Below are positions 5,754 to 21,409 of a stretch of 43,176 bases of DNA, one piece after another. This DNA comes from Gammaproteobacteria bacterium. Its GTDB lineage: Bacteria; Pseudomonadota; Gammaproteobacteria; Pseudomonadales; Litorivicinaceae. How positions within the stretch are numbered: position 1 is the stretch's first letter; each line of letters begins with the position of its first letter. The stretch covers positions 2,316-45,491 of the forward strand of contig PBZS01000022.1 of the NCBI GenBank assembly GCA_002730235.1. Reading direction: 5' to 3'. The notes beneath the pieces were generated by a model. The model saw nothing but the letters and a program-made list of their open reading frames with translations, had not been told where the DNA came from and searched no databases. Both the position numbers and the translations under genes were made by a program.

Positions 5754-5785
5754 AGACAAATTATTTGTGCATAAGTCCCAAATCA

Positions 5786-5805
5786 GATCGAACTCGTATT
5801 CGATC
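5786..5805. promoter_or_regulatory. inverted repeat between the two palindromes
   Basis: Perfect 7-bp arms GATCGAA and TTCGATC separated by 6 bp (CTCGTA). It sits between the two TTGACAGTCAA copies, inside the dctP / aldehyde dehydrogenase promoter region. It may be a second regulator site; chance is possible because GATCGA-like words are common in this sequence. Confidence 0.35.
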
Positions 5806-5814
5806 GGTGACTTC

Positions 5815-5825
5815 TTGACAGTCAA
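5815..5825. promoter_or_regulatory. palindromic operator candidate, copy 2
   Basis: TTGACAGTCAA, the second exact copy of the palindrome found at 5742-5752. The centre-to-centre distance of 73 bp is close to seven helical turns, so proteins bound to both would face the same side of the DNA. It lies about 194 bp before the aldehyde dehydrogenase ATG. The half TTGACA also looks like a -35 box, but no matching -10 follows at the right distance on the plus strand. Confidence 0.55.
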
Positions 5826-6018
5826 ATCGAAAAAAAATCTACGCGGAGATGGAAACCATCCGCTTGCTACCAGACCAGTTAAGCAAAATCGTTCGCCCTC
5901 TGAATTTATCGGCCTTCCCACGCGCTTAATTAGGGCTGGATATGTTCGTAGCCGAGTAGAGTATAATCCATCAAGCTACTTGACGTTCTGGCCTCTTTCG
6001 CAATTAGGATTAGTAAAA

Positions 6019-7470
6019 ATGACGGATTTATCTTGTCTCCCAGAAAATACGGGACTCTTTTTTAACGGGGAATTCCAAAACGGTAATAGCTTACTGACAT
6101 CAAAAAATCCTGCCACCGGCGAAATATTGCTGGAGGTCAGTGGAGCATCAGAGGAAACCGTAGATCGTGCGGTTACACAGGCATGGAACGCACAACCTGC
6201 TTGGGCAAAGACCGATATCAGAGAACGAGTCGCATGCGTCCGAAAATTTATAGATGCTATAGAAACAAATGCCAACAACTTGGCTACACTTGACGCGTTG
6301 GATACTGGTAATCCATATCGTGGCATGCAGATTGACGTGAAGATCAGCCTAGCTGTCATGGATCTATTCGCCGGTCTTGCTCCAGAAATTAAGGGAGAGT
6401 CTTTTCCTGGTCCTGGAGACCGAATCAATTTCTCTGTCCGCGAACCGCTGGGTGTCGTCGCCCGTATTGTTCCGTTCAATCATCCATTTATGTTCGCATG
6501 CATAAAAAGTGTTGCACCGCTGATTGCGGGAAATGCGGTGGTAATTAAGCCATCCGAACATACCCCTCTCAGTGCGTTACGGATCGCTGAGCTTGCGGGA
6601 AATCTTTTCCCTCCTGGGATTTTCAACGTCCTAAATGGTGGTCGGGAGACTGGAAGTGCGCTAGCTCAACACCCAAGAGTTCGCAACGTCAGTCTGGTTG
6701 GAAGCGTACCCACTGGAAAAGCTGTGCTGACCGACGCCTCGAGTACCATCAAGTCCGTTCTACTTGAGCTTGGTGGAAAAAACCCATTGGTTATTTGCCC
6801 GGATGTTGATATCGATTTTGCAGTAGCAACTGCTGTCAAAGGGATGAATCTGACCTGGACCGCGGGCCAGTCTTGTGGCTCAACCAGCAGACTTCTGGTG
6901 CATGACAGCATTTATAAAGACGTGGTGGAGGGTGTCACAGAATCTTTTCATGAATTGACCCTCGGGATTCCATCCGACCACCAGACAGAGATGGGCTGCC
7001 TCACGACGAAACCCCACTTCGAAAAGGTAAAAGAATACTTAGACATCGGTCAGTCAGAAGGGGCGAAAATGACCACGGGGGGCATACCTGAACACACGCC
7101 ACATCCAAACGGACTCTTTATTCGGCCGACCCTATTTTCCGATGTTAGTCCTGATATGAAGATAGCAAACGAAGAAATCTTTGGCCCAATCCTATCGGTA
7201 TTGTCCTGGTCGACGGATAATCAGGTTATCGATATCGCAAATTCTGTAGACTTCGGCCTAACGGCTGGAATTTTATCGAATGACATTAACCAAGCCTTAA
7301 AAATGTCTAAAGAAATTCAAGCGGGCTATGTGTGGATCAATAATTCAAGTGATCACTATCCTGGTGTCCCCTTCGGCGGCTTCAAAGACTCGGGGCTGGG
7401 CCGAGAGGAGTGTCTCGAGGAAATGCTGGCATATACCCAGCTGAAGGCCATCAATATTCATCTGCGTTAG
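6019..7470 (+). CDS. aldehyde dehydrogenase family protein
   Basis: 483 aa from the ATG at 6019, which has an upstream AGGA; the longer open frame back to 5767 is rejected because its first 84 residues do not resemble the family. NAD(P)-dependent oxidation of an aldehyde to its acid is expected. The catalytic Glu250 lies in ELGGKNP and the nucleophile Cys286 in GQSCGSTSR; the PFNHP and VIKPSE cofactor-binding motifs are also present. The end reads PFGGFKDSGLGREE. It is divergent from the TRAP operon and likely oxidises an intermediate derived from the imported compound. It is closely similar to the dehydrogenase at 27199-28695, sharing the rare GQSCGSTSR active site, so the two are paralogues. 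Confidence 0.93.
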   Translation: MTDLSCLPENTGLFFNGEFQNGNSLLTSKNPATGEILLEVSGASEETVDRAVTQAWNAQPAWAKTDIRERVACVRKFIDAIETNANNLATLDALDTGNPYRGMQIDVKISLAVMDLFAGLAPEIKGESFPGPGDRINFSVREPLGVVARIVPFNHPFMFACIKSVAPLIAGNAVVIKPSEHTPLSALRIAELAGNLFPPGIFNVLNGGRETGSALAQHPRVRNVSLVGSVPTGKAVLTDASSTIKSVLLELGGKNPLVICPDVDIDFAVATAVKGMNLTWTAGQSCGSTSRLLVHDSIYKDVVEGVTESFHELTLGIPSDHQTEMGCLTTKPHFEKVKEYLDIGQSEGAKMTTGGIPEHTPHPNGLFIRPTLFSDVSPDMKIANEEIFGPILSVLSWSTDNQVIDIANSVDFGLTAGILSNDINQALKMSKEIQAGYVWINNSSDHYPGVPFGGFKDSGLGREECLEEMLAYTQLKAINIHLR

Positions 7471-9395: not shown

Positions 9396-10151
9396 TCAAC
9401 CGCTGCCGCCAGGCATAATTACTGAACAACCACCGTCTACAAAGAGATCGGTTCCCACGATAAAGTCTGACTGATCGGATACAAGGAACGCCACCGCGTT
9501 GGCTAGATCCGACGGAGCACCAGCGCGGTTCCTCAGGTTGATGATTGGTCTGCTTGGATCAAATTCATCTTTACCGACCGGGGACCCGATCTTGTTAGGT
9601 ACTACGCTGTTCACACGAATATTATATTCCGCCAATTGAATAGCCATCGCTTTTGTAAGATTTACAACTCCACCTTTAGCGGCGGCGTATGCAATTGCTC
9701 TGCCGCGGCCAAAGTAGCCGGTCGTCGACGATACATTGACAATGTTACCGGGGATCCCCTGATCAACCATCTTGTGAGCTACACATTTCGCAAAATAAAA
9801 AGGGGCGGTCAAAGTGATATCGAGCGTTTTTTGCCATGTGGTCAAGTCGATATCCAATATGTTTTTGTTATCAGAAATAGCGACATTATTCACCAAAATA
9901 TCGATCCGCTTGAACTCGTGTTGGATCGCGTCTACGACATTCAGAATCTGTTCCGGCTTAGATACATCACAGACGAATGACGCAGCGGAAACGCCTTTTT
10001 TAATCAGATCTTCGACTACCTTATCTGCACGTCCCTGATCAAGATCAACAACCGCTATCGAGGCACCCTCCTCAGCAAGGCGGTGGGCAATAGCCTCCCC
10101 GATATTTCGACCAGCACCAGTAATGATTGCGAGCTTTCCCTCATGACTCAT
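9396..10151 (-). CDS. SDR family oxidoreductase
   Basis: 251 aa classical SDR. Cofactor loop GAGRNIGEA near residue 12, Asp in VVDLDQ suggesting NAD preference, NNVA motif, Ser in NVSSTTG and Tyr-Lys in YAAAK. SD AGGGGAAA precedes the ATG. It begins a two-gene minus-strand unit with the ATM1-type exporter and is divergent from the decarboxylase-like gene at 10411 across 259 bp. It probably oxidises a secondary alcohol or dihydrodiol, a common task of SDRs beside aromatic decarboxylases, but no substrate can be assigned. Confidence 0.88.
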   Translation of the reverse strand: MSHEGKLAIITGAGRNIGEAIAHRLAEEGASIAVVDLDQGRADKVVEDLIKKGVSAASFVCDVSKPEQILNVVDAIQHEFKRIDILVNNVAISDNKNILDIDLTTWQKTLDITLTAPFYFAKCVAHKMVDQGIPGNIVNVSSTTGYFGRGRAIAYAAAKGGVVNLTKAMAIQLAEYNIRVNSVVPNKIGSPVGKDEFDPSRPIINLRNRAGAPSDLANAVAFLVSDQSDFIVGTDLFVDGGCSVIMPGGSG

Positions 10152-10410
10152 CCCAGATTTCCCCTAATGTCAGATGCCCCACGTAATTAACGGTCGACTA
10201 TCCCACACAAACCAAAGGTTAGACAAAGATAGTAGCGGTCTCGGTGGCCCAAAATGATCGTATGATCTCAAAAGTCTATGGTTCAAGCGTGTAATATTTT
10301 CTTGTCAGGTCACTCTTAAAATAATTTAGTTAAATGTTCCGACAAGCTGGAATCGAAGTTTCACGGTCGTTATGGTTGAAACAAGAATAAATATACAAGG
10401 TATTCTGTGT

Positions 10411-11397
10411 GTGTCCCGACTCAATCTGTCCGTTGCTACCAATGACTATGACCAATTCAGGGACGTCAGAATTCGCAAGTCAAACTCTGAGGGGATTGAC
10501 CTTAACTGGTTCAGTTTCACCTACCACGAGTGTTTCGTCAGATTTACTGCTGATCTGGAGTTCAATATTTCAGAGCTGTCATTCGCTAAGTTCAGCACCC
10601 AAATCACACGAGATAGACCAGACAACATCAGACTCCCCATATTTTACTCAAAGTTGTTCCGATTCAGTTCGTTTTATTAAGAAAATAGCGACATCAAAAT
10701 GATCAAAGATCTCAGGGGAAAACATGTCGGATCGCCGGAGTGGACTCACTCAGTGGCAGTATGGCTGAGGGGCTGGATGCAAAATGATAGGGGAATCGAT
10801 CTCACGGACATCAACTGGGCTCAAGCTGGAGCAGACGCCCCGGGGCGGGGAGAGAAGGTAGAACTGAACTTACCCGAGGGCATAGACCCAGAACGGATTA
10901 AAGATAAATCACTGAGTCAGCTTTTAGCGGGCAGTGAAACTGATTGTGCAATCGTTGCCCGTCCTCCGACATGCTTCCTGGTAAACCGTTTGGATATCGT
11001 CCGCTTGTTCCCTGAGTACATCAAAATGGAAGAGGCATACTTTAAAGAGACCGGCGCCTGGCCAATCGTATATATTGTGGCGATGAAAAGATCTATATAT
11101 GACGAGCATCCTTGGGTCGCTCGTAACCTTTACAATGTGCTCCTTGAGTCGAAAGACCAAGGTGTCTCAAGGCTCCTTGATCCGGCGATCTCGCGATACC
11201 CACTGCCGTGGGTGGCGACCTATGCCAACCACATGCGGAAATTCATGAATGGCGACCCGTTCCCTTACGATATCGAAGAAAACAGAAAAACATGGAAACA
11301 AATGGCGCTCTACTCTTACCGGCAAGACATAGCCCACAGACAGTTCACGCCCGAAGTGATTTTCCCTCCAACTGTCTCGACGAAAGTCATAACATAA
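10411..11397 (+). pseudogene. 4,5-dihydroxyphthalate decarboxylase-like gene with in-frame stop
   Basis: Read through, this frame encodes about 328 aa, the normal length of Pht5-type 4,5-dihydroxyphthalate decarboxylases, which share the fold of NMT1/SsuA binding proteins. The first part (SRLNLSVATNDYD, EGIDLNWF, FNISELSFAKF) and the second part (DLRGKHVGSPEW, WAQAGAD, HPWVARNLYN, YPLPWVATYA) both match the family and are in the same frame, but a TAA at 10678-10680 (codon 90) separates them. The start is probably GTG at 10411, giving the family-typical MSRL opening; an ATG at 10372 is possible. The C-terminal part could restart at ATG 10699 (232 aa) but has no SD and lacks the N-lobe. Nonsense mutation or sequence error are the likely causes; readthrough is unsupported. 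Confidence 0.78.
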
Positions 11398-11414
11398 AAC
11401 GGAGCGACATCGAA

Positions 11415-12164
11415 ATGGCTCACAAGCATCCACCATCAGCCGGTAAAGTAGATCCAGCCATCATCGCCGATCTAGCAGCGGCCGCACGAATCTTGGCTGC
11501 ACGGGGAGTAGTGGATGGTTTCGGGCACGTGTCCATGAGACATCCCTCTGCACCAGATCGCTATTTAATGGCTAAATCTCTGGCTCCGGCGCTTGTCAAA
11601 CCCGCAGATATCATCGAGTACACACTTGACAGTGACCCCTGTGAGGATCGCGGACGGGCTTCGTTCTTGGAGCGATTTATACACGGCGAGATTTACAAGA
11701 TGCGGCCAGATATCAATGCGATCGTGCACTCCCACTCACCCTCCGTTATCCCATTTGGCGTAGTTAAAAACCAGATGAAAGCCATGTTCCATAACGCAGC
11801 ATTCCTGGCGATGGGGGTGCCCATTTTTGATATTCGCCAGTCGTTTGGGATGACGGACATGCTGGTCTGTAATTGCGCCAAGGGTCTGGCTCTCGCCGAG
11901 ACACTTGAAGATAAGCATGTTGCCTTGATGAGGGCCCATGGCTCGGTCGCCACAGGCGACTCGCTGCAGAATGCCGTCTTTCGGGCTGTATACACTGAGG
12001 TAAATGCGCGGATCCAGTTGTCGGCGATCTCGATCGCTCAAGATGGCGGGATAGAAGCGCTTGAGCCAGAAGAAGGCGTCCTCGCCGATGAAATTAATAA
12101 GACCGCAGGCATGCGAGCCTGGAATCTCTGGCGGATGGAAATCCGATCACAAAACAACTGGTAA
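11415..12164 (+). CDS. class II aldolase/adducin family protein
   Basis: 249 aa from ATG 11415, preceded by GGAG about 10 nt upstream; the frame is open further upstream but only as a shadow of the previous gene. Zinc ligands of the family are visible: His105 and His107 in IVHSHS and His175 in RAHGS, with Glu86 and His90 in the preceding FLERFIHGEIY helix. The fold covers sugar-phosphate aldolases and also decarboxylases of hydroxylated aromatics such as 3,4-dihydroxyphthalate 2-decarboxylase. The neighbouring dihydroxyphthalate-decarboxylase-like gene favours a decarboxylase or hydratase role over sugar metabolism, but this is inference. Confidence 0.9.
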   Translation: MAHKHPPSAGKVDPAIIADLAAAARILAARGVVDGFGHVSMRHPSAPDRYLMAKSLAPALVKPADIIEYTLDSDPCEDRGRASFLERFIHGEIYKMRPDINAIVHSHSPSVIPFGVVKNQMKAMFHNAAFLAMGVPIFDIRQSFGMTDMLVCNCAKGLALAETLEDKHVALMRAHGSVATGDSLQNAVFRAVYTEVNARIQLSAISIAQDGGIEALEPEEGVLADEINKTAGMRAWNLWRMEIRSQNNW

Positions 12165-12169
12165 AAATT

Positions 12170-12847
12170 ATGGAATCTTTAAAGCAAGATCTTGTCGATT
12201 GCATCCGAATGCTCGAGTGCTCCGGTATCATCGACTACAACGGACACGCAAGCACCAAACTCGACGACAACCGGCTGCTCATCAATATCGGCTCATGCCA
12301 GAGAAGCACGCTCACCACCGCCGACATTTGTGAGATTGATTTTGAAGGTAACGTAATCTCGGGTAAAGACAAGCCACCACTGGAGTTTCATCTACATGTC
12401 GGAATTTACAAAGTTCGACCAGACGCTAAGGCAATCGTTCATTCGCACCCCAAATGGTCCACATTCCTGACAATGACCGGTAGCGAATATCGACCAGTCT
12501 ACGCGCAAGGCACACTAGTCTATCCGTTACCACTTCTCGATTCCCCTGACTCGATCAACAATCCGGTCATGGCGGAAAGGCTGGCAGACACGCTTGGTGA
12601 TCGCCCTGCAGCGCTCATGAAAGCTCACGGTGCGGTGACTGTCGGCAAGACTATCCAAGATGCGTTCGTTTTAGCAAATTATTTGGAAGAGAACAGCCAC
12701 CGTCAGTATATGGCGATGCAGATCGGTACCCCTTACTTATTTTCCGCTGCGGAAATTGAAAAATATCGAGAAAAACTCTGGAACCCCAATCTTTTCGAGC
12801 GAACCTGGAACCACTTCAAAGCAAAACTCCCTCCCACTCGATTGTAG
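12170..12847 (+). CDS. class II aldolase/adducin family protein (second copy)
   Basis: 225 aa with the complete class II metal site: Glu72 in PPLEFHLH, His91 and His93 in IVHSHPK, and His153 in KAHGAV. It starts 5 bp after the stop of the preceding aldolase-fold gene, so the two are translationally coupled; no strong SD is visible. The two proteins are only distantly alike, so they probably catalyse different steps or form distinct enzymes rather than a recent tandem duplication. Role in the pathway: decarboxylation or retro-aldol cleavage of a carboxylated hydroxy compound, by family and context. Confidence 0.9.
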   Translation: MESLKQDLVDCIRMLECSGIIDYNGHASTKLDDNRLLINIGSCQRSTLTTADICEIDFEGNVISGKDKPPLEFHLHVGIYKVRPDAKAIVHSHPKWSTFLTMTGSEYRPVYAQGTLVYPLPLLDSPDSINNPVMAERLADTLGDRPAALMKAHGAVTVGKTIQDAFVLANYLEENSHRQYMAMQIGTPYLFSAAEIEKYREKLWNPNLFERTWNHFKAKLPPTRL

Positions 12848-12856
12848 GCGTTTGTG

Positions 12857-13723
12857 ATGATAAAGCTAACCGACGACAGCGAGATTAATTTGGTGGGCGT
12901 AATGGGCTTCCCTATCACACACTCGCGAAGCCCACTGATGCACAACACGCTGATGCAGGAGAATGGTATTCGCGGCACCTACATCCCAATCGAAATTAAA
13001 CCAGGAAAGTTAGCCCCAGCCCTAGAGTCCTTGCCTAAACTCGGATTTAAAGGCGTCAATCTGACCATGCCCCTCAAACAAGAAGCCATCGCTACGGTCG
13101 ATGAACTTGACCCCGCAGGGAAGCTTATCGGAGCGGTGAGTTGCGTCGTTGTGCGGAAAGACAACTCACTTCTGGGTATTAATAACGATTGGATCGGTTT
13201 TAAAGATAACCTCAAAGCTAGATATCCTAACTGGAAATCAAACACTAAAACGGCGCTGGTATTAGGAGCTGGTGGTGGTGGATTAGCGATTATTTACGCA
13301 CTCATCCAAGAGGGGATACACAATATTATCTTGACCAATCGAACAAAAGTAGGGGCGGAGAAAATAGCAAATATCTTCAATAACCAAAATATACAAGTGA
13401 GACCCTGGGCAGAGCGTCACTCGTTAGTCGAAGAGTGCGAGCTAATCGTTAACACAACCAACCAGGGAATGGCCGGCCAGCCGCCCTTAGATCTATCCCT
13501 TGATCTGGCGATGCCTGACACACTCGTCACGGACATTATCTACGTCCCTCTCGAGACAAAACTTATAACAGATGCAAAATCCAGAGGGCTGCGAACGCTT
13601 GGTGGTCTGGGGATGTTACTGCAGCAATCTCGGCCAGCGTGGCAAGTCTGGTTCGGTGTCGATCCAAAAATTACCAACAATCTGCGATCCTTAATGGAAC
13701 AAGATATCCTTCAGAGCACTTGA
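12857..13723 (+). CDS. aroE: shikimate/quinate dehydrogenase-like protein
   Basis: 288 aa from ATG 12857 (a GTG directly before it is an alternative). The AroE substrate motif THSRSPLMHN is intact, with the two serines that hold shikimate; the catalytic Lys74 is in NLTMPLK and the catalytic Asp111 in NNDWIGF. The nucleotide loop GAGGGG and the C-terminal GLGMLLQQS are present. It is the last gene of a four-gene operon with decarboxylase- and aldolase-type enzymes, which points to a catabolic paralogue acting on a hydroaromatic acid rather than the housekeeping shikimate enzyme. NNDW replaces the more usual NTDxxG, so specificity may differ. Confidence 0.88.
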   Translation: MIKLTDDSEINLVGVMGFPITHSRSPLMHNTLMQENGIRGTYIPIEIKPGKLAPALESLPKLGFKGVNLTMPLKQEAIATVDELDPAGKLIGAVSCVVVRKDNSLLGINNDWIGFKDNLKARYPNWKSNTKTALVLGAGGGGLAIIYALIQEGIHNIILTNRTKVGAEKIANIFNNQNIQVRPWAERHSLVEECELIVNTTNQGMAGQPPLDLSLDLAMPDTLVTDIIYVPLETKLITDAKSRGLRTLGGLGMLLQQSRPAWQVWFGVDPKITNNLRSLMEQDILQST

Positions 13724-13767
13724 TAACCGTTTCGAGAGGGGGTTAAAGAAATCGCAACACGCAGAAC

Positions 13768-14229
13768 TTAAGCGAATCCTTCGATAAAGACGCCCTTATA
13801 CAGCTCTTTTTCCAATATAAATTCGAACAAGCCAAATAGAATCAGACCGAGAATCATACTCGTTCCCGCTGCCATTAGAAGCTTCTTCCCACCAAAGAAA
13901 TACATCGAGCAGAACGTATAAACCACAGCCGCAAGAATCAGACCCAGAAAATAAGCAAGCGCGACAAATGCCGTGATCCATAACATCGCGACCAGTACGC
14001 TCTGGTTACTTGCTTGGCCAGATGTTTGGCTCGAATTATCGTCGTCCACATTCGAACCATCCAAACCAGTCAATACGACCAAACAAGTGAGCACCATAAA
14101 GATCGAAGCCCAGAACGGAATAAAAGCAGAGACCGGTCCGTAACTTGATCCAACATAGAGTGTGCCAACAGCGAATACCGTTAAGGGTATCAGCAGCCAT
14201 ACATTGCTATGGTTTATTTTAATCTTCAC
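13768..14229 (-). CDS. tctB: tripartite tricarboxylate transporter small permease (TctB)
   Basis: 153 aa with about four membrane segments and a polar, low-complexity loop (SNVDDDNSSQTSGQ) in the middle, as is common in TctB. It overlaps the end of tctA by 4 bp (ATGA), showing translational coupling. It converges with the aroE-like gene; only 44 bp lie between the two stops. It is the accessory membrane subunit of the secondary importer formed with TctA and TctC. Confidence 0.88.
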   Translation of the reverse strand: MKIKINHSNVWLLIPLTVFAVGTLYVGSSYGPVSAFIPFWASIFMVLTCLVVLTGLDGSNVDDDNSSQTSGQASNQSVLVAMLWITAFVALAYFLGLILAAVVYTFCSMYFFGGKKLLMAAGTSMILGLILFGLFEFILEKELYKGVFIEGFA

Positions 14230-15749
14230 GCTGCGGTTTCCTTGGAGTCGGACTTACTAAAAAATCCCTTAAGGTAATAGGCTATGCAAGCGACTATGAG
14301 GAGCATGATGACTATTGACTGGGGTCGAGTGAACAAAATACTCAACGTTCCATCGCCTATCCTAAGTGTTTGGAAGTAGCTTGTTTCCATTAGCGGCCCG
14401 AGGACAATAGCCAGAGGGAATGCTATCCGAGGGAATCCGAATCTCATAAATAAAAAACCAACGAAACCAAATACTAACGTCGTGACTACATCGTAAATTT
14501 CGTTATCGAGCGAATAAGAACCAATCATTGCAAACGCCAAAACGATTGGGACAAGAGTTCGGGAGTCTACAAACGTTAGTTTAGCGATAGAGCTCGCTGC
14601 CGATATTGTGATAATGGAGGCAATCACCCCAGAAGTTGCCGCCGCAGCGATCAGGATCCAGATAATATCAAGGCTTTCTGTCATGATAGTCGGTCCTGGG
14701 ACCATGCCATGGAGGATTAGTACGCTCAGGAAAACCGCCATCTCTGCGCTTCCTGGGATACCGAACGCCAAAGTCGGTACAAGTGCCCCACCCTCCTTGG
14801 CATTATTAGCCGACTCAGGCGCAATGACGCCAATAATATTCCCCTTACCAAATGAGTCTCTTTCGCTCGGTTTAGCCGTGGTGACCGCTATCGTATATGC
14901 CATAAATGCGGCCACAGTACCGCCGACGCCAGGTAATGCGCCCACACCGGTACCGATGGCGCTGCCGCGTAACAATACCTTCCATCGTTTGATTGGCTCG
15001 AGACAGCCCTGCAAGACCTGTCGAAAGTTGATGGCCTCCATTTCACCGGACCCAGCGACTGAGCCCCGTTTCGCCCACAGATTGATCATTTCACTGACAG
15101 CAAAGAACCCGATCATGACAGGAACAAGCTTGAACCCATCCCAAAGATAATCGATTCCAAATGTGAACCGCTCTTCACCAGTCACCTCATGGTAACCAAC
15201 CGAAGCGATAATCAAACCGAATAATCCCACGATCAAGCTCTTAACGAATTTTTTACCAGTCGACAGGGAAACAGTTACGAGTCCTAGAACAGCTAATAAA
15301 AGGAACTCGGTTGGCGCGAACATCAGGACGATCTCTCGTGTGATCGGGACCATCGCGATCAAAAAAATAATTCCGATGATACCACCCAGACCCGATGCAG
15401 CTGCCGCTGCACCGATCGCCAGGCCAGCCTTTCCTTGCTGAGACAACGGGTACCCATCGAGCGTCGTGGCTGCGTTGGGCGCGGTCCCTGGTGTGTTAAG
15501 AAGGATAGCGGTGACAGCTCCACTGGTGGGGGCCACACCCATGACGCCGGCCATCAGAATAATCGCATCACCGGGTTCCATGTTCATCGAAAAGGGAATC
15601 AATATTGCCAACGCGGTGGTACCGCCCAGCCCGGGGAGTACGCCGAAGACAAGCCCAATTAGGGTCCCGAGAACGAGATAGAACAAGGAGTCCAATTCAA
15701 ACAGTCGGACCCAGGCCTCAGAAATCACTGCTAAATCAAGAGCTTCCAT
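14226..15749 (-). CDS. tctA: tripartite tricarboxylate transporter large permease (TctA)
   Basis: 507 aa, the standard length for TctA, with about twelve hydrophobic segments. Two family-specific glycine/proline-rich loops are present: GVLPGLGGTTALAI near residue 40 and ALPGVGGTVAAFMAY near 260, and also the segment NNAKEGGALVPTLAFGIPG. It forms the cation-driven translocation channel. It lies 96 bp downstream of the binding-protein gene, separated by a strong hairpin, and overlaps tctB. Confidence 0.95.
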   Translation of the reverse strand: MEALDLAVISEAWVRLFELDSLFYLVLGTLIGLVFGVLPGLGGTTALAILIPFSMNMEPGDAIILMAGVMGVAPTSGAVTAILLNTPGTAPNAATTLDGYPLSQQGKAGLAIGAAAAASGLGGIIGIIFLIAMVPITREIVLMFAPTEFLLLAVLGLVTVSLSTGKKFVKSLIVGLFGLIIASVGYHEVTGEERFTFGIDYLWDGFKLVPVMIGFFAVSEMINLWAKRGSVAGSGEMEAINFRQVLQGCLEPIKRWKVLLRGSAIGTGVGALPGVGGTVAAFMAYTIAVTTAKPSERDSFGKGNIIGVIAPESANNAKEGGALVPTLAFGIPGSAEMAVFLSVLILHGMVPGPTIMTESLDIIWILIAAAATSGVIASIITISAASSIAKLTFVDSRTLVPIVLAFAMIGSYSLDNEIYDVVTTLVFGFVGFLFMRFGFPRIAFPLAIVLGPLMETSYFQTLRIGDGTLSILFTRPQSIVIMLLIVACIAYYLKGFFSKSDSKETAA

Positions 15750-15790
15750 TCAACCAAGACCTGTCAGATTTAAAAAAGAATAGTGGTACT

Positions 15791-15835
15791 GTTAGCCCAG
15801 CCTCCCACCAAGGCAAGGTGGAAGGCAGGACTAAC
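15791..15835 (-). promoter_or_regulatory. intercistronic stem-loop between tctC and tctA
   Basis: Two 19-nt arms (15791-15809 and 15817-15835) pair at 16 of 19 positions around a 7-nt loop. It lies 11 bp after the tctC stop in the direction of transcription and is followed by a T-run (TTTTTT) about 13 nt further on, upstream of tctA. This is the typical place for an mRNA-stabilising or partially terminating hairpin that keeps the binding protein more abundant than the permease. Whether it terminates or protects is not decidable from sequence. Confidence 0.65.
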
Positions 15836-15845
15836 GATAAAGCAA

Positions 15846-16811
15846 TCAGAATACGTCTCTAAACTTCTTGAAGTAGTCCAGTGTATCCATCAGCGCTTTC
15901 TTCGTTTCCGCAGTTGTGTCGTAGGCCTTGACAGGGTTACCCGTCTTAGCAGACCACGCCTGAATATCAGGATGATTTACGGCATACGATAGCGCATCGT
16001 TCCACTCATCCATTATCTCCTTAGACATACCAGCAGGACCGGCAATGATCCTCAGTAGGCCTAGACTATGCAGCTCTGGGTGACCGATATCTTTCCCGTT
16101 AACTGCCCCGGAGAATGCCGGATCGACGTTATCAGCAAAGTGAGCGAGGATGTTGTAGTCGCCGCCTTTGTTGTATCGCTTGGCCGAACCAGACGCGAGC
16201 ATGGTGACATCACCGTCGCCACGAAGAACGGCTGTGGTGTAGTCTCTGGATGACTTGTATCCATAGATATACTCACCACCTTTTCCGAGAGTTGACCACG
16301 TAATCCTGTTCGCCATGTTTGAGGTTGATCCAGGCCCCTGCTCAGGAATCTTTAGATCACCTGATTTGTTCACCAGATCATCGAGTTTTTTGTACGGGCC
16401 TTCTTTAGAAACCACTACCACGTAGCTATCACCTCCGACCCGATTTAACCAGCTGTAGCCCTGGATATCATACCCCGGATTCTCACCTTTAATGTACGGA
16501 AGTCCGTGGCCAGGGATATTGAAGATCTGAACAGTGTACCCGTCAGGCTTCTGCTTTGAAGTGTATACCGCTGCCTTTTTACCAGAGGCGCCCGGCATGT
16601 TCTTTGGAACTACTTTAATCTTGTTATAGCTCTTACCTGTTTTTTCTCTGAAATATTCCTCGATGTACGGTGAGAGCTTACGTGTGAGGGTGTCGAACCC
16701 GCCACCTGGGCCGTAAGGAATCACAATCGTAATATCTTTTTCAGGGAATGCTGCTTGTGCAGGCGCTGATGCAATCAGACCTAAAGCGACGAGTGCAGTG
16801 AGAAAACGCAT
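15846..16811 (-). CDS. tctC: tripartite tricarboxylate transporter binding protein (TctC/Bug family)
   Basis: 321 aa with a signal peptide (MRFLTALVALGLIASAPAQA, cleavage near residue 20). The Bug-family signature IVIPYGPGGGFDTL follows directly. SD AAAGGAGA precedes the ATG. It captures a substrate in the periplasm for TctAB. Known family ligands include citrate and other carboxylates and, for TphC, terephthalate. Given the convergent decarboxylase/AroE operon an aromatic or hydroaromatic acid is plausible, but this is an inference from location. The protein is first in the tctCAB order. Confidence 0.92.
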   Translation of the reverse strand: MRFLTALVALGLIASAPAQAAFPEKDITIVIPYGPGGGFDTLTRKLSPYIEEYFREKTGKSYNKIKVVPKNMPGASGKKAAVYTSKQKPDGYTVQIFNIPGHGLPYIKGENPGYDIQGYSWLNRVGGDSYVVVVSKEGPYKKLDDLVNKSGDLKIPEQGPGSTSNMANRITWSTLGKGGEYIYGYKSSRDYTTAVLRGDGDVTMLASGSAKRYNKGGDYNILAHFADNVDPAFSGAVNGKDIGHPELHSLGLLRIIAGPAGMSKEIMDEWNDALSYAVNHPDIQAWSAKTGNPVKAYDTTAETKKALMDTLDYFKKFRDVF

Positions 16812-16952
16812 TCTTACTCTCCTTTAGATTTATAGTTATAAGCCATCAACTAGTTTGATGATATAAGCACCGTACACTCCATGGATTATTACAGTCCAGC
16901 AATCGGCTATCTGATTTTGTTATTGGCTCGATATAGCCTGTGTATGGAGTAA
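16812..16952. other. spacer with nested inverted repeats upstream of tctC
   Basis: 141 bp between the MFS stop and the tctC start. It contains nested short inverted repeats, an outer ACTCCAT/ATGGAGT (16875-16881 and 16943-16949) and an inner GGCTAT/ATAGCC. They could form a branched RNA structure or mark a promoter region for tctC. The SD of tctC lies at its left end. Evidence for function is weak. Confidence 0.3.
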
Positions 16953-18110
16953 CTACAGACGATCCTTGGCCATCCATAGGGTAACGAGCATCAGGACCAA
17001 GAGCACCGTTCCGACGATCAGGAATGTCCACTGAATAGTGACAATGCTTCCAATTAAACCAGCAAACAAAGGAATCAGAAATGTCGCGCAACGATTCAAA
17101 CTGGTCCGCAAACCAACAATTAAGCCCTGAATATCCTTTGATATCTTAGCGCCAAGGACCGAGAACATTGCGGGCTGAGTAACCCCTACAGCTAGTCCCA
17201 TGGTTATGTTCAAAACGGCAAGGACCGCGTACGAATCTGTTAGTGACATCGCAGATACAGCAATTAAGGCTAGCACGATAAATACACCGAGGACCTTTTC
17301 AGAGCTCCAACTCTTGGAAAGTATGGTGTGAAGGAACGCAGAGCAAGCAGAGGATATTGCACTTACACCGATCAAGACGCCGATTTGGGTTGCGCTAAAC
17401 TCGAGCTCCGCGAGATACACCGGCACAAAGCTGGTCTGCAACGAAACTGCTCCCAGCCGGATAGAAGAGCAAGCAACAATGTAGACTACGATTGGATCTC
17501 TGAGGAGCTGGACGGCCTGCCTATAATCACCCTTCATCGCCTGTCGTTTGGATGCGGCTCTTTCACTGCCACTGACTTCCTGAGATAACTGTAATGCAAG
17601 GACACTCATTACAGCACACCAAAGAGCGGTCGCTACAAAGGTCGAATCCGCCCCGAAGTAATCCCAAATGAAACCGATAATGAAGGGTCCAAAAAACGTT
17701 CCACCCATGCTCCAAAAGCCTAGATGACTTGTAACAATTGGATCGCCACGATACGTCTTCCCGATACCAGTCTGAACACCGATCCAACAGAATGACTGGC
17801 AGACACCGAAAATAAGCTGCAGAAGAACTAGATGAAAAACACTCGTTGCAAACGGGTACGCTAGCGAAAGGGCCGAACAGGCCAGGGCCAGTCGGGTGAC
17901 CATAAATCGGACACCGTAACGATCGACCATTGCACCACCAGGGATCGCCAGAAGGAACGGTAGCAGTGATCGCATGGCCATAATTATTCCAATCTCAGCC
18001 GGACTGGCTCCGATCCCTAGCGCATAAAGCGGCACGATTACCGCGGTCAGAGGAACAAGACCTAGCGCCATAAAGCCCGACGCGAAGTAGAAAATTTTTT
18101 CCTTATCCAC
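16953..18110 (-). CDS. MFS transporter
   Basis: 385 aa, about twelve hydrophobic segments, the expected size for a major facilitator. The conserved loop between helices 2 and 3 reads GGAMVDRYGVRF, matching the MFS GxxaDRxGrr motif. The start is GTG at 18110 and overlaps the AbrB-family gene by 8 bp, so the two are made together. Direction and substrate are unknown; location next to TctABC suggests transport of a pathway substrate or efflux of a by-product. Confidence 0.87.
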   Translation of the reverse strand: MDKEKIFYFASGFMALGLVPLTAVIVPLYALGIGASPAEIGIIMAMRSLLPFLLAIPGGAMVDRYGVRFMVTRLALACSALSLAYPFATSVFHLVLLQLIFGVCQSFCWIGVQTGIGKTYRGDPIVTSHLGFWSMGGTFFGPFIIGFIWDYFGADSTFVATALWCAVMSVLALQLSQEVSGSERAASKRQAMKGDYRQAVQLLRDPIVVYIVACSSIRLGAVSLQTSFVPVYLAELEFSATQIGVLIGVSAISSACSAFLHTILSKSWSSEKVLGVFIVLALIAVSAMSLTDSYAVLAVLNITMGLAVGVTQPAMFSVLGAKISKDIQGLIVGLRTSLNRCATFLIPLFAGLIGSIVTIQWTFLIVGTVLLVLMLVTLWMAKDRL

Positions 18111-19134
18111 GGGTCTGACTCAGGCGTTTCAGGCCTGCCAATAAAAGAGGAAGTGAGAGCATAATCAACGCAATCCGAAAAATTTGGTGCGTAACAACAA
18201 ATGTCAGATCCAGCTTCAGTGCAAAAGCCAGCAGAGCAAGCTCTGTCTGCCCACCAGGCATGAACGCAAGCACGATCTGAATCCAGGGAATATTTGAGAC
18301 GGTAGCGTACACCAAGAGTGCGCAAAAGCAGAGGCAACAAAACATAATCACGACACTACAGATACCTGCTACAAAGGCCCGTCCCATGGAGCTGATCGAG
18401 ACTCCGTAAAATGCTCGCGCGATATCAATTCCGATTGCGACTTGTGCGAGTATCAGTAGCGGCGTGAAGAGCTCCAACTGGAGGACACCAAACCCTTGTA
18501 AGGCCGCTACCAGAACCATTGGTCCCAACAAGGGCGCGCTAGGAATTTTGAGAGATGCACAGATTTTCCAGCCAATAAATCCCAACACCAGATGGATCGG
18601 TATGTATTCAGCATGGTCAAAAGACGGGGTCTGCATCCGCAAGTCCTGGATACCGACATAAAGACCCAATAGGGACGCCCCTATTACAATAATGACGACA
18701 CGCATCAGATGAATAATAGTTAGAGTCTTCACATCAGCACCCACGTCACGACCAGTTGTTACCATCTCTACCATCCCACCAGGGAGTGCCGAAAACATAG
18801 CTGTGAATGCATCGAAGCGAAATATTCGCGTCAGCGCATTGAAGTTAAGTGAGGTCGCGAGAATTAGAAAAAGTGGGACGATAATCAGGGTATTCCAGTA
18901 GGAAAAGAACTCACTCGGTGTTACGGCATCAAAGCCAGTACCCACCATTGCGCCTAACACACAACGCGCCCATGGTGTCAGCGAAGTATAAGTCTGAACC
19001 CGAAGCCCAGTCATAGCGGCTGCGGATGCCGCAACCATGGAGCCAAGCAACCACGCCAGGGGTATTTGTTCGTAATAAAGACAAAACCCACCAGCAAAAC
19101 CGATAAGCCAGCTATATAACGTGAAACGAGTCAT
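18103..19134 (-). CDS. AbrB family membrane protein (putative transporter)
   Basis: 343 aa, almost entirely hydrophobic, with two similar halves as in the AbrB membrane-protein family (PF05145, once misnamed ammonia monooxygenase). Each half shows the family pattern: IPLAWLLGSMVAA and MVGTGFD in the first, IPSAPLLGPMVLVA and VAIGIDIAR in the second. FSALPGGMVEM and FMPGGQTELALLA are the repeated PGG motifs. It is the first gene of the minus-strand block and is divergent from the cupin pair. Members are often found near catabolic and TctABC genes; biochemical function is not established. Confidence 0.85.
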   Translation of the reverse strand: MTRFTLYSWLIGFAGGFCLYYEQIPLAWLLGSMVAASAAAMTGLRVQTYTSLTPWARCVLGAMVGTGFDAVTPSEFFSYWNTLIIVPLFLILATSLNFNALTRIFRFDAFTAMFSALPGGMVEMVTTGRDVGADVKTLTIIHLMRVVIIVIGASLLGLYVGIQDLRMQTPSFDHAEYIPIHLVLGFIGWKICASLKIPSAPLLGPMVLVAALQGFGVLQLELFTPLLILAQVAIGIDIARAFYGVSISSMGRAFVAGICSVVIMFCCLCFCALLVYATVSNIPWIQIVLAFMPGGQTELALLAFALKLDLTFVVTHQIFRIALIMLSLPLLLAGLKRLSQTRG

Positions 19135-19305
19135 CTGTAATATTTATTCCGAAAACGCAGAATCGTACAGGATGTTTGGGACCAGTCATGATTAAAACCG
19201 TCCTAATCCGATACGGTTTTAATCTTTCAGTCCCCAACGAGTGTTGACTAGATTATAGCTTAAGCAAAAAGTTCCCAAAAGTTCGCAAGAAATTGGAGAT
19301 ACAAG
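19135..19305. promoter_or_regulatory. divergent promoter region of AbrB and cupin operons
   Basis: 171-bp region serving two divergent operons. It carries a 12-bp perfect inverted repeat (separate entry), a TTGACT hexamer at 19244-19249 without a clear -10 at 17 bp, and the cupin SD GGAGA just before 19306. Confidence 0.6.
19190..19224. promoter_or_regulatory. 12-bp perfect inverted repeat, operator candidate
   Basis: GATTAAAACCGT at 19190-19201 and ACGGTTTTAATC at 19213-19224 are perfect reverse complements separated by 11 bp. The site is inside a divergent promoter region, so it is not a terminator of either flanking gene. The centre-to-centre distance of the half-sites is 23 bp, about two helical turns, which fits a dimeric regulator. 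No copy elsewhere in the window was noticed. Confidence 0.6.
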
Positions 19306-19860
19306 ATGACTCGATACCACGACCAAACCGACCGGATTTTCGTTCGCGGCGTTCAGGGTGCGTATAATTTGCAGCAAGAGCTGGAGCGACTGAGATCGCA
19401 ACCACGTGTACGAAAGGCAAAGGACCTTAAGATGGTTGATGGTCCCCAAGCTTACTCTAGGCACTACGTCGAGCCCAAAGACGGAATAACACAGACGTTC
19501 CACTTACACCTAGAGGAATACAGCCCGGGTGGAAAATCACAGAAACACGGACACGTGAACGAGGCTGCTTTTTATATCCTTGATGGCCAGGGCTACGAAA
19601 TCCACGACAACATTCGGTATGACTGGAGCGCGGGGGATATCGCGATCGTCCACAACAACTGTGTCCACCAGCACTTCAACGCTAGTGAGACGGAACCGGC
19701 TAGGGCTCTGGTGATAAAAACCAAACCGATGTACTTGTTCCTTAATATGCTTTTCCAGCAGACAGTAGAGGCGCGGCTTAAGGATCCGGCACCAGGACAA
19801 GAAGGATTTGAGCCCCGCGAAGAAGAGATCGACTATAACCACCTAGAAGGAGGTTACTAA
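19306..19860 (+). CDS. single-domain cupin protein
   Basis: 184 aa with one complete cupin. Motif 1 is KHGHVNE (His81, His83, Glu86) and motif 2 ends in HQHFN (His121), so all four metal ligands are in place. N-terminal about 60 residues are helical and polar. SD GGAGA precedes the ATG. It is followed 2 bp later by a second cupin gene whose perfect SD lies inside its last codons. The pair shares HQHFN with the C-terminal domain of the two-domain cupin at 31314-32507, suggesting that the two proteins together correspond to one bicupin. A ring- or C-C-cleaving dioxygenase is plausible; substrate unknown. Confidence 0.85.
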   Translation: MTRYHDQTDRIFVRGVQGAYNLQQELERLRSQPRVRKAKDLKMVDGPQAYSRHYVEPKDGITQTFHLHLEEYSPGGKSQKHGHVNEAAFYILDGQGYEIHDNIRYDWSAGDIAIVHNNCVHQHFNASETEPARALVIKTKPMYLFLNMLFQQTVEARLKDPAPGQEGFEPREEEIDYNHLEGGY

Positions 19861-19862
19861 TA

Positions 19863-20471
19863 ATGGCATGGCAAGAATCCAATTTCTGGCTGGATGGCTC
19901 AGAAAATATGTTGAGATATCATGAAGTGCTTCATGAAGCCCTAACTGCTGACGAAAGGAATGCAAAACGAAAAAAAGTCGTTCATCCGAGCGACATGCCG
20001 TGGGAGTTGTCACCACAAGGGATTTTGAAGCACCTGATCAACGAGCAAATGAATACAAGAATGGAAACGGTGGACGCCTATATGCAGATAATTCCTCCAG
20101 GAAGCCGCTCCGGTAAGCACAGACACCTCGCCGAAGAGTGCCTCTATGTTCTTGAGGGTTTCGGCTACGACCTCCACCAGGATTGTGATGTGGAAATAAC
20201 AGATACCTATCACTGGAGGGCGCAAGATGAGGTCAAAAAATTTGAGTGGGAGGCTGGGGACGTTGTCTATATTCCGCCAAACACCATTCATCAGCATTTT
20301 AATGGCGATCCTGACCGTCCTGCGCGCCTAATCTCCGCAACCAATCGTGTCTACTCGATGTGTGGTCTTAATGATCTTGAGCAACTCGAGAATGCACCGG
20401 AATATGTGGCGGATACCAACATCAATGCGGACTGGGTAAGAAAACTGATCGTGGAGAACGTTAAGGCCTAA
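19863..20471 (+). CDS. single-domain cupin protein, partner of the preceding one
   Basis: 202 aa with a complete metal site: KHRHLAE (His86, His88, Glu91) and VVYIPPNTIHQHFN (His143). An insertion of about 15 residues lies between the two motifs compared with its neighbour. The SD AAGGAGG is the strongest in this operon. It starts 2 bp after the previous cupin and its stop overlaps the following DMT permease start by one base. Tight coupling with a related but different cupin suggests a heteromeric enzyme. Confidence 0.87.
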   Translation: MAWQESNFWLDGSENMLRYHEVLHEALTADERNAKRKKVVHPSDMPWELSPQGILKHLINEQMNTRMETVDAYMQIIPPGSRSGKHRHLAEECLYVLEGFGYDLHQDCDVEITDTYHWRAQDEVKKFEWEAGDVVYIPPNTIHQHFNGDPDRPARLISATNRVYSMCGLNDLEQLENAPEYVADTNINADWVRKLIVENVKA

Positions 20472-21409
20472 TGATAATACTAGGCTCGTTGCTGTCGTTT
20501 CTGAGCGCGGCATTTTTTGGATTCAACGCGGTTATGATGCGGCGGGGAGTGCTGACAGGCTCGGCACTCCAAGGCCTCAGTTTTACTCTCCCCCTCGGCG
20601 CACTGTTCTTTGGAATCGCGTCCCTCGCTCTGCTCACGCCTGAAGATGTCGAGACACTAGACTGGACGGGGGCCTGGTATTTCATCGGCGCGGGGATCGT
20701 GCACTTCTTAATCGGTCGATATACCAACTACAAGTGCACCAAGGCGGTCGGGGCCAACATAGGTGGGCCGATCCAACAGTTCACAGTCGTTGTATCGGTG
20801 GTGCTTGCTATTTGGGTACTCGGAGAGTCTATTAACTGGTTAGGGTGGATAGGTATCATTCTGTTGACTGTGGGCCCGCTGGCGGTGGCGAAGGAAAAGA
20901 AAAAGAGTAAGGTCGAGAAGCTTGAGTTTGAGTTCAAACTCCTTGAAGGATACGCCTACGGGATAACCAGCTCCATCTGCTATGGGGCAAGCCCGGTTCT
21001 GATCGCACTGGCCCTTGAGGTCAGCACCTGGCAACTGGCGCTTTACGGAGCATTTCTGGGCCACGTAGCCGCGTCACTAGTGCTTCTTGTGATTGTCCTC
21101 GCGTTCGGATTGACAGGCGAAATCAAGGCAACCGACAAGAAAAATATCCCGTTTTTCATGCTCTCGGCCGTGTTCGTATTTTTATCGCAGGGGCTCCGGT
21201 ACGTCGCACTCTCGCTTGCACCGGTCTACATCGTTTCTCCAATGCAGAGAACGTCGACCATTTTTAGGGTCATCTTCAGTAAGATATTCAATCCAACAAC
21301 CGAGCTATTTGGTGTTTGGATCTGGATTGGTATCGGCGTCTCACTATTAGGTGCCGTACTATTAACAGTCCCGGGAGATGTCGTAGCGACGCTCCTCGGC
21401 CAACAGTGA
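20471..21409 (+). CDS. DMT superfamily (EamA) permease
   Basis: 312 aa with about ten hydrophobic helices in two EamA repeats, joined by a charged cytosolic linker (KEKKKSKVEK) near residue 140. The start codon shares one base with the stop of the second cupin (TAATG). It is the third gene of the cupin operon and probably moves the cupin substrate or product across the inner membrane. Direction is unknown; most characterised EamA proteins export small metabolites. Confidence 0.88.
   Translation: MIILGSLLSFLSAAFFGFNAVMMRRGVLTGSALQGLSFTLPLGALFFGIASLALLTPEDVETLDWTGAWYFIGAGIVHFLIGRYTNYKCTKAVGANIGGPIQQFTVVVSVVLAIWVLGESINWLGWIGIILLTVGPLAVAKEKKKSKVEKLEFEFKLLEGYAYGITSSICYGASPVLIALALEVSTWQLALYGAFLGHVAASLVLLVIVLAFGLTGEIKATDKKNIPFFMLSAVFVFLSQGLRYVALSLAPVYIVSPMQRTSTIFRVIFSKIFNPTTELFGVWIWIGIGVSLLGAVLLTVPGDVVATLLGQQ

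Follow-up and report, generated by a model that had tools for sequence, protein, structure and literature searches.

A Pht5-like decarboxylase gene at the head of a four-gene operon in a Litorivicinaceae bacterium is probably a decaying pseudogene

The DNA analysed here, called the window, is a stretch of 43,176 nucleotides from contig PBZS01000022.1 of a Litorivicinaceae genome (GCA_002730235.1). It contains a pht5-like gene followed by two genes of the class II aldolase/adducin family and an aroE-like gene; the names aldA and aldB are labels coined for the present analysis (Table 1). The frame of the first gene (10411-11397, forward strand) is interrupted once, by a TAA at 10678-10680, and homology continues in that frame before and after it, which bears out what the preliminary description had reported for this position. 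The GTG start and the preceding AAGGT are common to the three relatives aligned upstream. The part before the stop is 70-81% and the part after it 72-79% identical to 8 orthologs in the genus, and because both parts match the same orthologs, they belong to one gene. The region before the stop is thus homologous to the decarboxylase, a point on which the earlier interpretation had been made to depend.

Table 1. Features of the pht5-like gene and of the operon that it heads
Feature	Coordinates	Strand	Observations
Putative pseudogene, N-terminal part, Pht5-like	10411..10677	+	89 codons, GTG start; 70-81% identity to 8 congeneric orthologs
In-frame TAA	10678..10680	+	Coincides with a net one-codon loss relative to aligned homologs
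Putative pseudogene, C-terminal part	10681..11394	+	238 codons, open but decayed
Original terminal stop codon, TAA	11395..11397	+	C-terminal ends align in the 9-sequence alignment
aldA, class II aldolase/adducin family, intact	11415..12164	+	PF00596, E 1.2e-30; 0/60 invariant positions changed
aldB, second class II aldolase/adducin family gene, intact	12170..12847	+	PF00596, E 7.7e-33; 0/67 invariant positions changed
aroE-like, shikimate dehydrogenase family, intact	12854..13723	+	PF08501/PF01488; NF001312, 300.4 bits (cut-off 295)

The intact orthologs provided the family assignment. One of them matched the solved 4,5-dihydroxyphthalate decarboxylase PDB 9jp7, an enzyme type that we take to be the one named Pht5, over residues 2-322 of 328 (E 8e-62). 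No NCBIfam model reached its cut-off with the intact orthologs, and the only Pfam match of an intact ortholog was NMT1/THI5-like at residues 85-141 (21.9 bits, cut-off 20.5); neither half of the broken gene matched Pfam or NCBIfam at E 0.001. Judged by homology, the intact orthologs would be Pht5-type decarboxylase-like proteins, to which we assign no particular substrate. Among the papers listed by literature searches, no title dealt with a pht5-like gene in Litoricola or Litorivicinus.

We searched 21 further genomes of the genus, several of them incomplete, and found orthologs in 8, all of which are open. Using these 8 orthologs and three paralogs as the query alignment, we scanned named genomes and kept the best 80 of at least 279 relatives among at least 596 pattern matches. 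All 80, the 8 congeners included, have an open frame that extends at least 85 codons upstream and at least 225 codons downstream of the start of the match. They were found through two conserved motifs, so that the motif columns are partly conserved by this selection; one of the 22 changed columns described below (N142) lies inside the motifs. The named-genome scan with the window's own C-terminal part yielded no relative among its 13 pattern matches. In the bacterium's own genome, an assembly of 109 contigs that is 88% complete, we detected no close replacement copy. This genome has four other family members, 26-34% identical over the matched stretch, of which two lie close together on contig 109 (L002, L003), one on contig 58 (L005) and one on contig 22 to the left of the window (L004).

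The sole gap in the 9-sequence alignment of the pht5-like gene is one codon long and lies at the stop. In place of the relatives' Y-[V/I]-N-K-(N/K)-S it has Y-stop-E-N-S in the window, a net loss of 3 bases, and the total length, previously described as matching that of intact relatives, is one codon short at this point. A single point mutation as the origin of the stop was rejected on account of the gap; the stop may have arisen from one 3-base deletion with further changes or from two compensating small indels. In all 80 kept homologs the column aligned to the stop is a sense codon (N). The frame is thus disrupted relative to the intact orthologs, with one stop as the only disabling lesion seen and no net frameshift, and the TAA may or may not have been the first lesion.

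We then examined the window at the columns where none of the 80 homologs varies. It departs at 23 of 128 such columns, or 22 of 127 without the stop column, and the substitutions fall in both parts of the gene (8/40 in the N-terminal and 14/87 in the C-terminal part). When each of the 80 homologs was left out in turn, no other sequence departed at more than 2 of 130 columns, and when all columns with at least 97.5% conservation were admitted, the window departed at 24 of 148 and the next sequence at 4. Among the 9 congeners alone, the window departed at 37 of 235 columns and the others at 1 to 11 of 236-246. From fully conserved to variable columns, the window differed from both sister genomes at 22/127, 4/35, 11/65, 20/75 and 7/24; these shares indicate that the difference is hardly tied to conservation. 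The window is also changed at 5 of the 27 positions common to six orthologs and at least 90% of 24 paralogs, including H221Y (codon 11071-11073). Reading the alignment to 9jp7 by eye, we found G74, R81, P194, M220, H221 and G287 to be common to that enzyme as well, and the window carries G74R, R81K, P194L, H221Y and G287D at such sites. The decay along the remainder of the gene had not figured in the preliminary description.

The same tests were applied to the downstream genes as controls. In aldA and aldB, no position invariant among the 45 homologs of each gene has changed, and the difference between 23/128 in the pht5-like gene and 0/127 in aldA and aldB together is significant (p 8e-8), showing that constraint at otherwise invariant sites has been lost in the former; the control homologs had been picked by identity to the window's own proteins, which favours low counts, and gapped cells were counted in the test of the pht5-like gene and left out in those of aldA and aldB. 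In a six-genome comparison free of such a choice, the window departed at 5/215 positions in aldA, 11/193 in aldB and 11/200 in the aroE-like gene, with 0 to 8 in the other genomes; the same type of comparison gave 10/72 and 36/195 for the two parts of the pht5-like gene, with 0 to 5 and 1 to 10 in the others. Outgroup-invariant columns were changed in the window at 35 of 247 in the pht5-like gene versus 10 of 432 in aldA, aldB and aroE together (p 6e-9). The ratio of window-specific to sister-specific changes, 35:9 in the pht5-like gene, did not differ significantly from the 10:5 of these three genes (p 0.32) and did differ from the 20:18 of six neighbour genes pooled (p 0.018).

The distribution of changes over codon positions gave a similar picture. 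Window-derived changes in the pht5-like gene were spread 25/26/32 over codon positions 1/2/3 (20/19/23 in the C-terminal part), compared with 12/13/39 in aldA and aldB (p 0.008), 21/18/70 once aroE was included (p 0.0005) and 38/23/150 across six neighbour genes (p 5e-7). The spread is compatible with a plain 2:1 expectation (p 0.35); however, saturated third positions escape the rule by which window-derived changes were called, which accounts for part of the evenness, and the comparison with neighbour genes, which were counted by the same rule, is sounder. On the stem of the sister clade the changes in this gene were 3/1/19 (p 0.0003), by a count that follows a slightly different rule. Transitions made up 67 of the 83 window-derived changes, as in real mutation.

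These codon counts and the codon models both excluded the stop codon and gapped codons. The models were less clear-cut. With 9 genomes, omega was 0.31 on the window branch and 0.023 on the remaining branches (p 7e-22). However, the window-branch value was raised in the other operon genes too (aldA 0.11, p 0.007; aldB 0.18, p 3e-8; aroE 0.26, p 0.0016), so a short-branch or saturation effect may contribute to this signal. With 6 genomes, omega for the pht5-like gene was 0.21 on the window branch versus 0.15 in the sister clade (p 0.48), and none of 7 other genes differed at 0.05 (fewer genomes for TctA, SDR and ABC). The omega comparison alone is not decisive, and our conclusion relies on the tests of invariant sites and of codon positions. 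For about 50 neutral missense changes, about 3 stops would be expected (nonsense:missense ratio about 0.058), so that finding just one is not surprising under neutral drift.

The rest of the operon is in a different state. All 8 relatives share the order pht5-like, aldA, aldB, aroE-like, and together with the unchanged invariant positions of aldA and aldB this agrees with the earlier view that the remaining operon is intact. Of the 22 genomes in the genus, 9 have a close aldA ortholog (at least 73% identity), and these are the very genomes with the pht5-like gene or its remnant. Among the 80 kept loci, whose flanks differ in length, 45 have a good aldA match and 51 a good aldB match. These sequence comparisons indicate that the downstream operon is still under selection. 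In three more distant congeners (L039, L040 and L041) the operon is kept, and the stretches compared (window 9396-21409) gave no match above 45% to the window's SDR and Tct neighbours; there the operon may lie in a different context. Elsewhere in the window, the GTG start of the aldehyde dehydrogenase ORF at 5767-7470 is possibly placed too far upstream: in three relatives a good alignment begins only near residue 47, 81 or 89, and the first 77 residues have a 54% match in G017, by coordinates in another frame.

Taken together, the stop and the gene-wide changes at invariant positions suggest, at a probability of about 0.93, that the pht5-like gene is a decaying pseudogene, the first gene of the four-gene operon. 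The preliminary description had offered a pseudogene as one reading, and this part of it stood. Its qualification as very recent did not: substitutions at invariant positions in both parts of the gene, together with the spread of changes over codon positions, argue that the inactivation is not very recent.

Three other explanations were weighed. There is only a very slim chance that the gene is functional and that the stop stems from a sequencing or assembly error, which the preliminary description had also offered. The fragmentation of the source assembly speaks for such an error, but the net 3-base loss, the substitutions over both parts and their codon-position spread are not accounted for by a local miscall, the changes are predominantly transitions, and neighbour genes on the same contig look normal. 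Just as improbable is that the gene works as two pieces, or that the C-terminal ORF (ATG 10699, 232 aa) has acquired a new function; this part is open for 238 codons with no frameshift, yet it has decayed like the rest, with changes at its invariant positions and an even spread of changes over its codon positions. Read-through of the stop to a full-length enzyme, which had earlier been considered the less likely cause, can practically be dismissed: the frame is open past the stop and the original terminus is kept, but the aligned column is a sense codon in every kept homolog, TAA terminates other genes of the window (ABC, TctB), and the product would keep the five substitutions at sites shared with 9jp7 and be altered at positions common to orthologs and most paralogs, H221Y belonging to both sets.

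If the pht5-like gene is a pseudogene, the enzyme would have become dispensable in the window's species after its split from the nearest sampled relatives, while the remainder of the operon would still be in use. The window branch has a length of 0.89 (9-genome model) or 1.31 (6-genome model) neutral substitutions per codon; if it is taken as about 1, the changes at 17% of the invariant codons would suggest that very roughly its final fifth to quarter may have been neutral. The lack of frameshifts could reflect chance, or selection for translation through the gene. A bolder proposal, which we consider rather unlikely, is that the pathway has been rewired, with the decarboxylase step dropped and the two aldolase-type enzymes and the dehydrogenase kept under selection, and with the frame spared frameshifts as ribosomes running through it protect or couple downstream translation. 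The set of relatives lets a sequencing slip be told from real gene decay, and one species that keeps the operon without its first enzyme would be a small natural test of a dispensable step in an uncharacterised pathway; otherwise the case would be one of routine gene loss.

The locus can be compared with three known systems. Like ordinary bacterial pseudogenes, the window gene has a premature stop, a small indel and lost constraint; unlike them, it carries only one disabling lesion and has otherwise kept its frame. The 4,5-dihydroxyphthalate decarboxylase 9jp7 shows near-full-length homology with the intact orthologs, whereas the gene in this genus stands first in an operon that also holds aldA, aldB and the aroE-like gene, and the window copy is broken. 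PhtC, a class II aldolase-type 3,4-dihydroxyphthalate decarboxylase (NF053537), is matched by aldA and aldB at 77.5 and 67.3 bits, far below the cut-off of 200 bits, and neither gene was therefore assigned to it.
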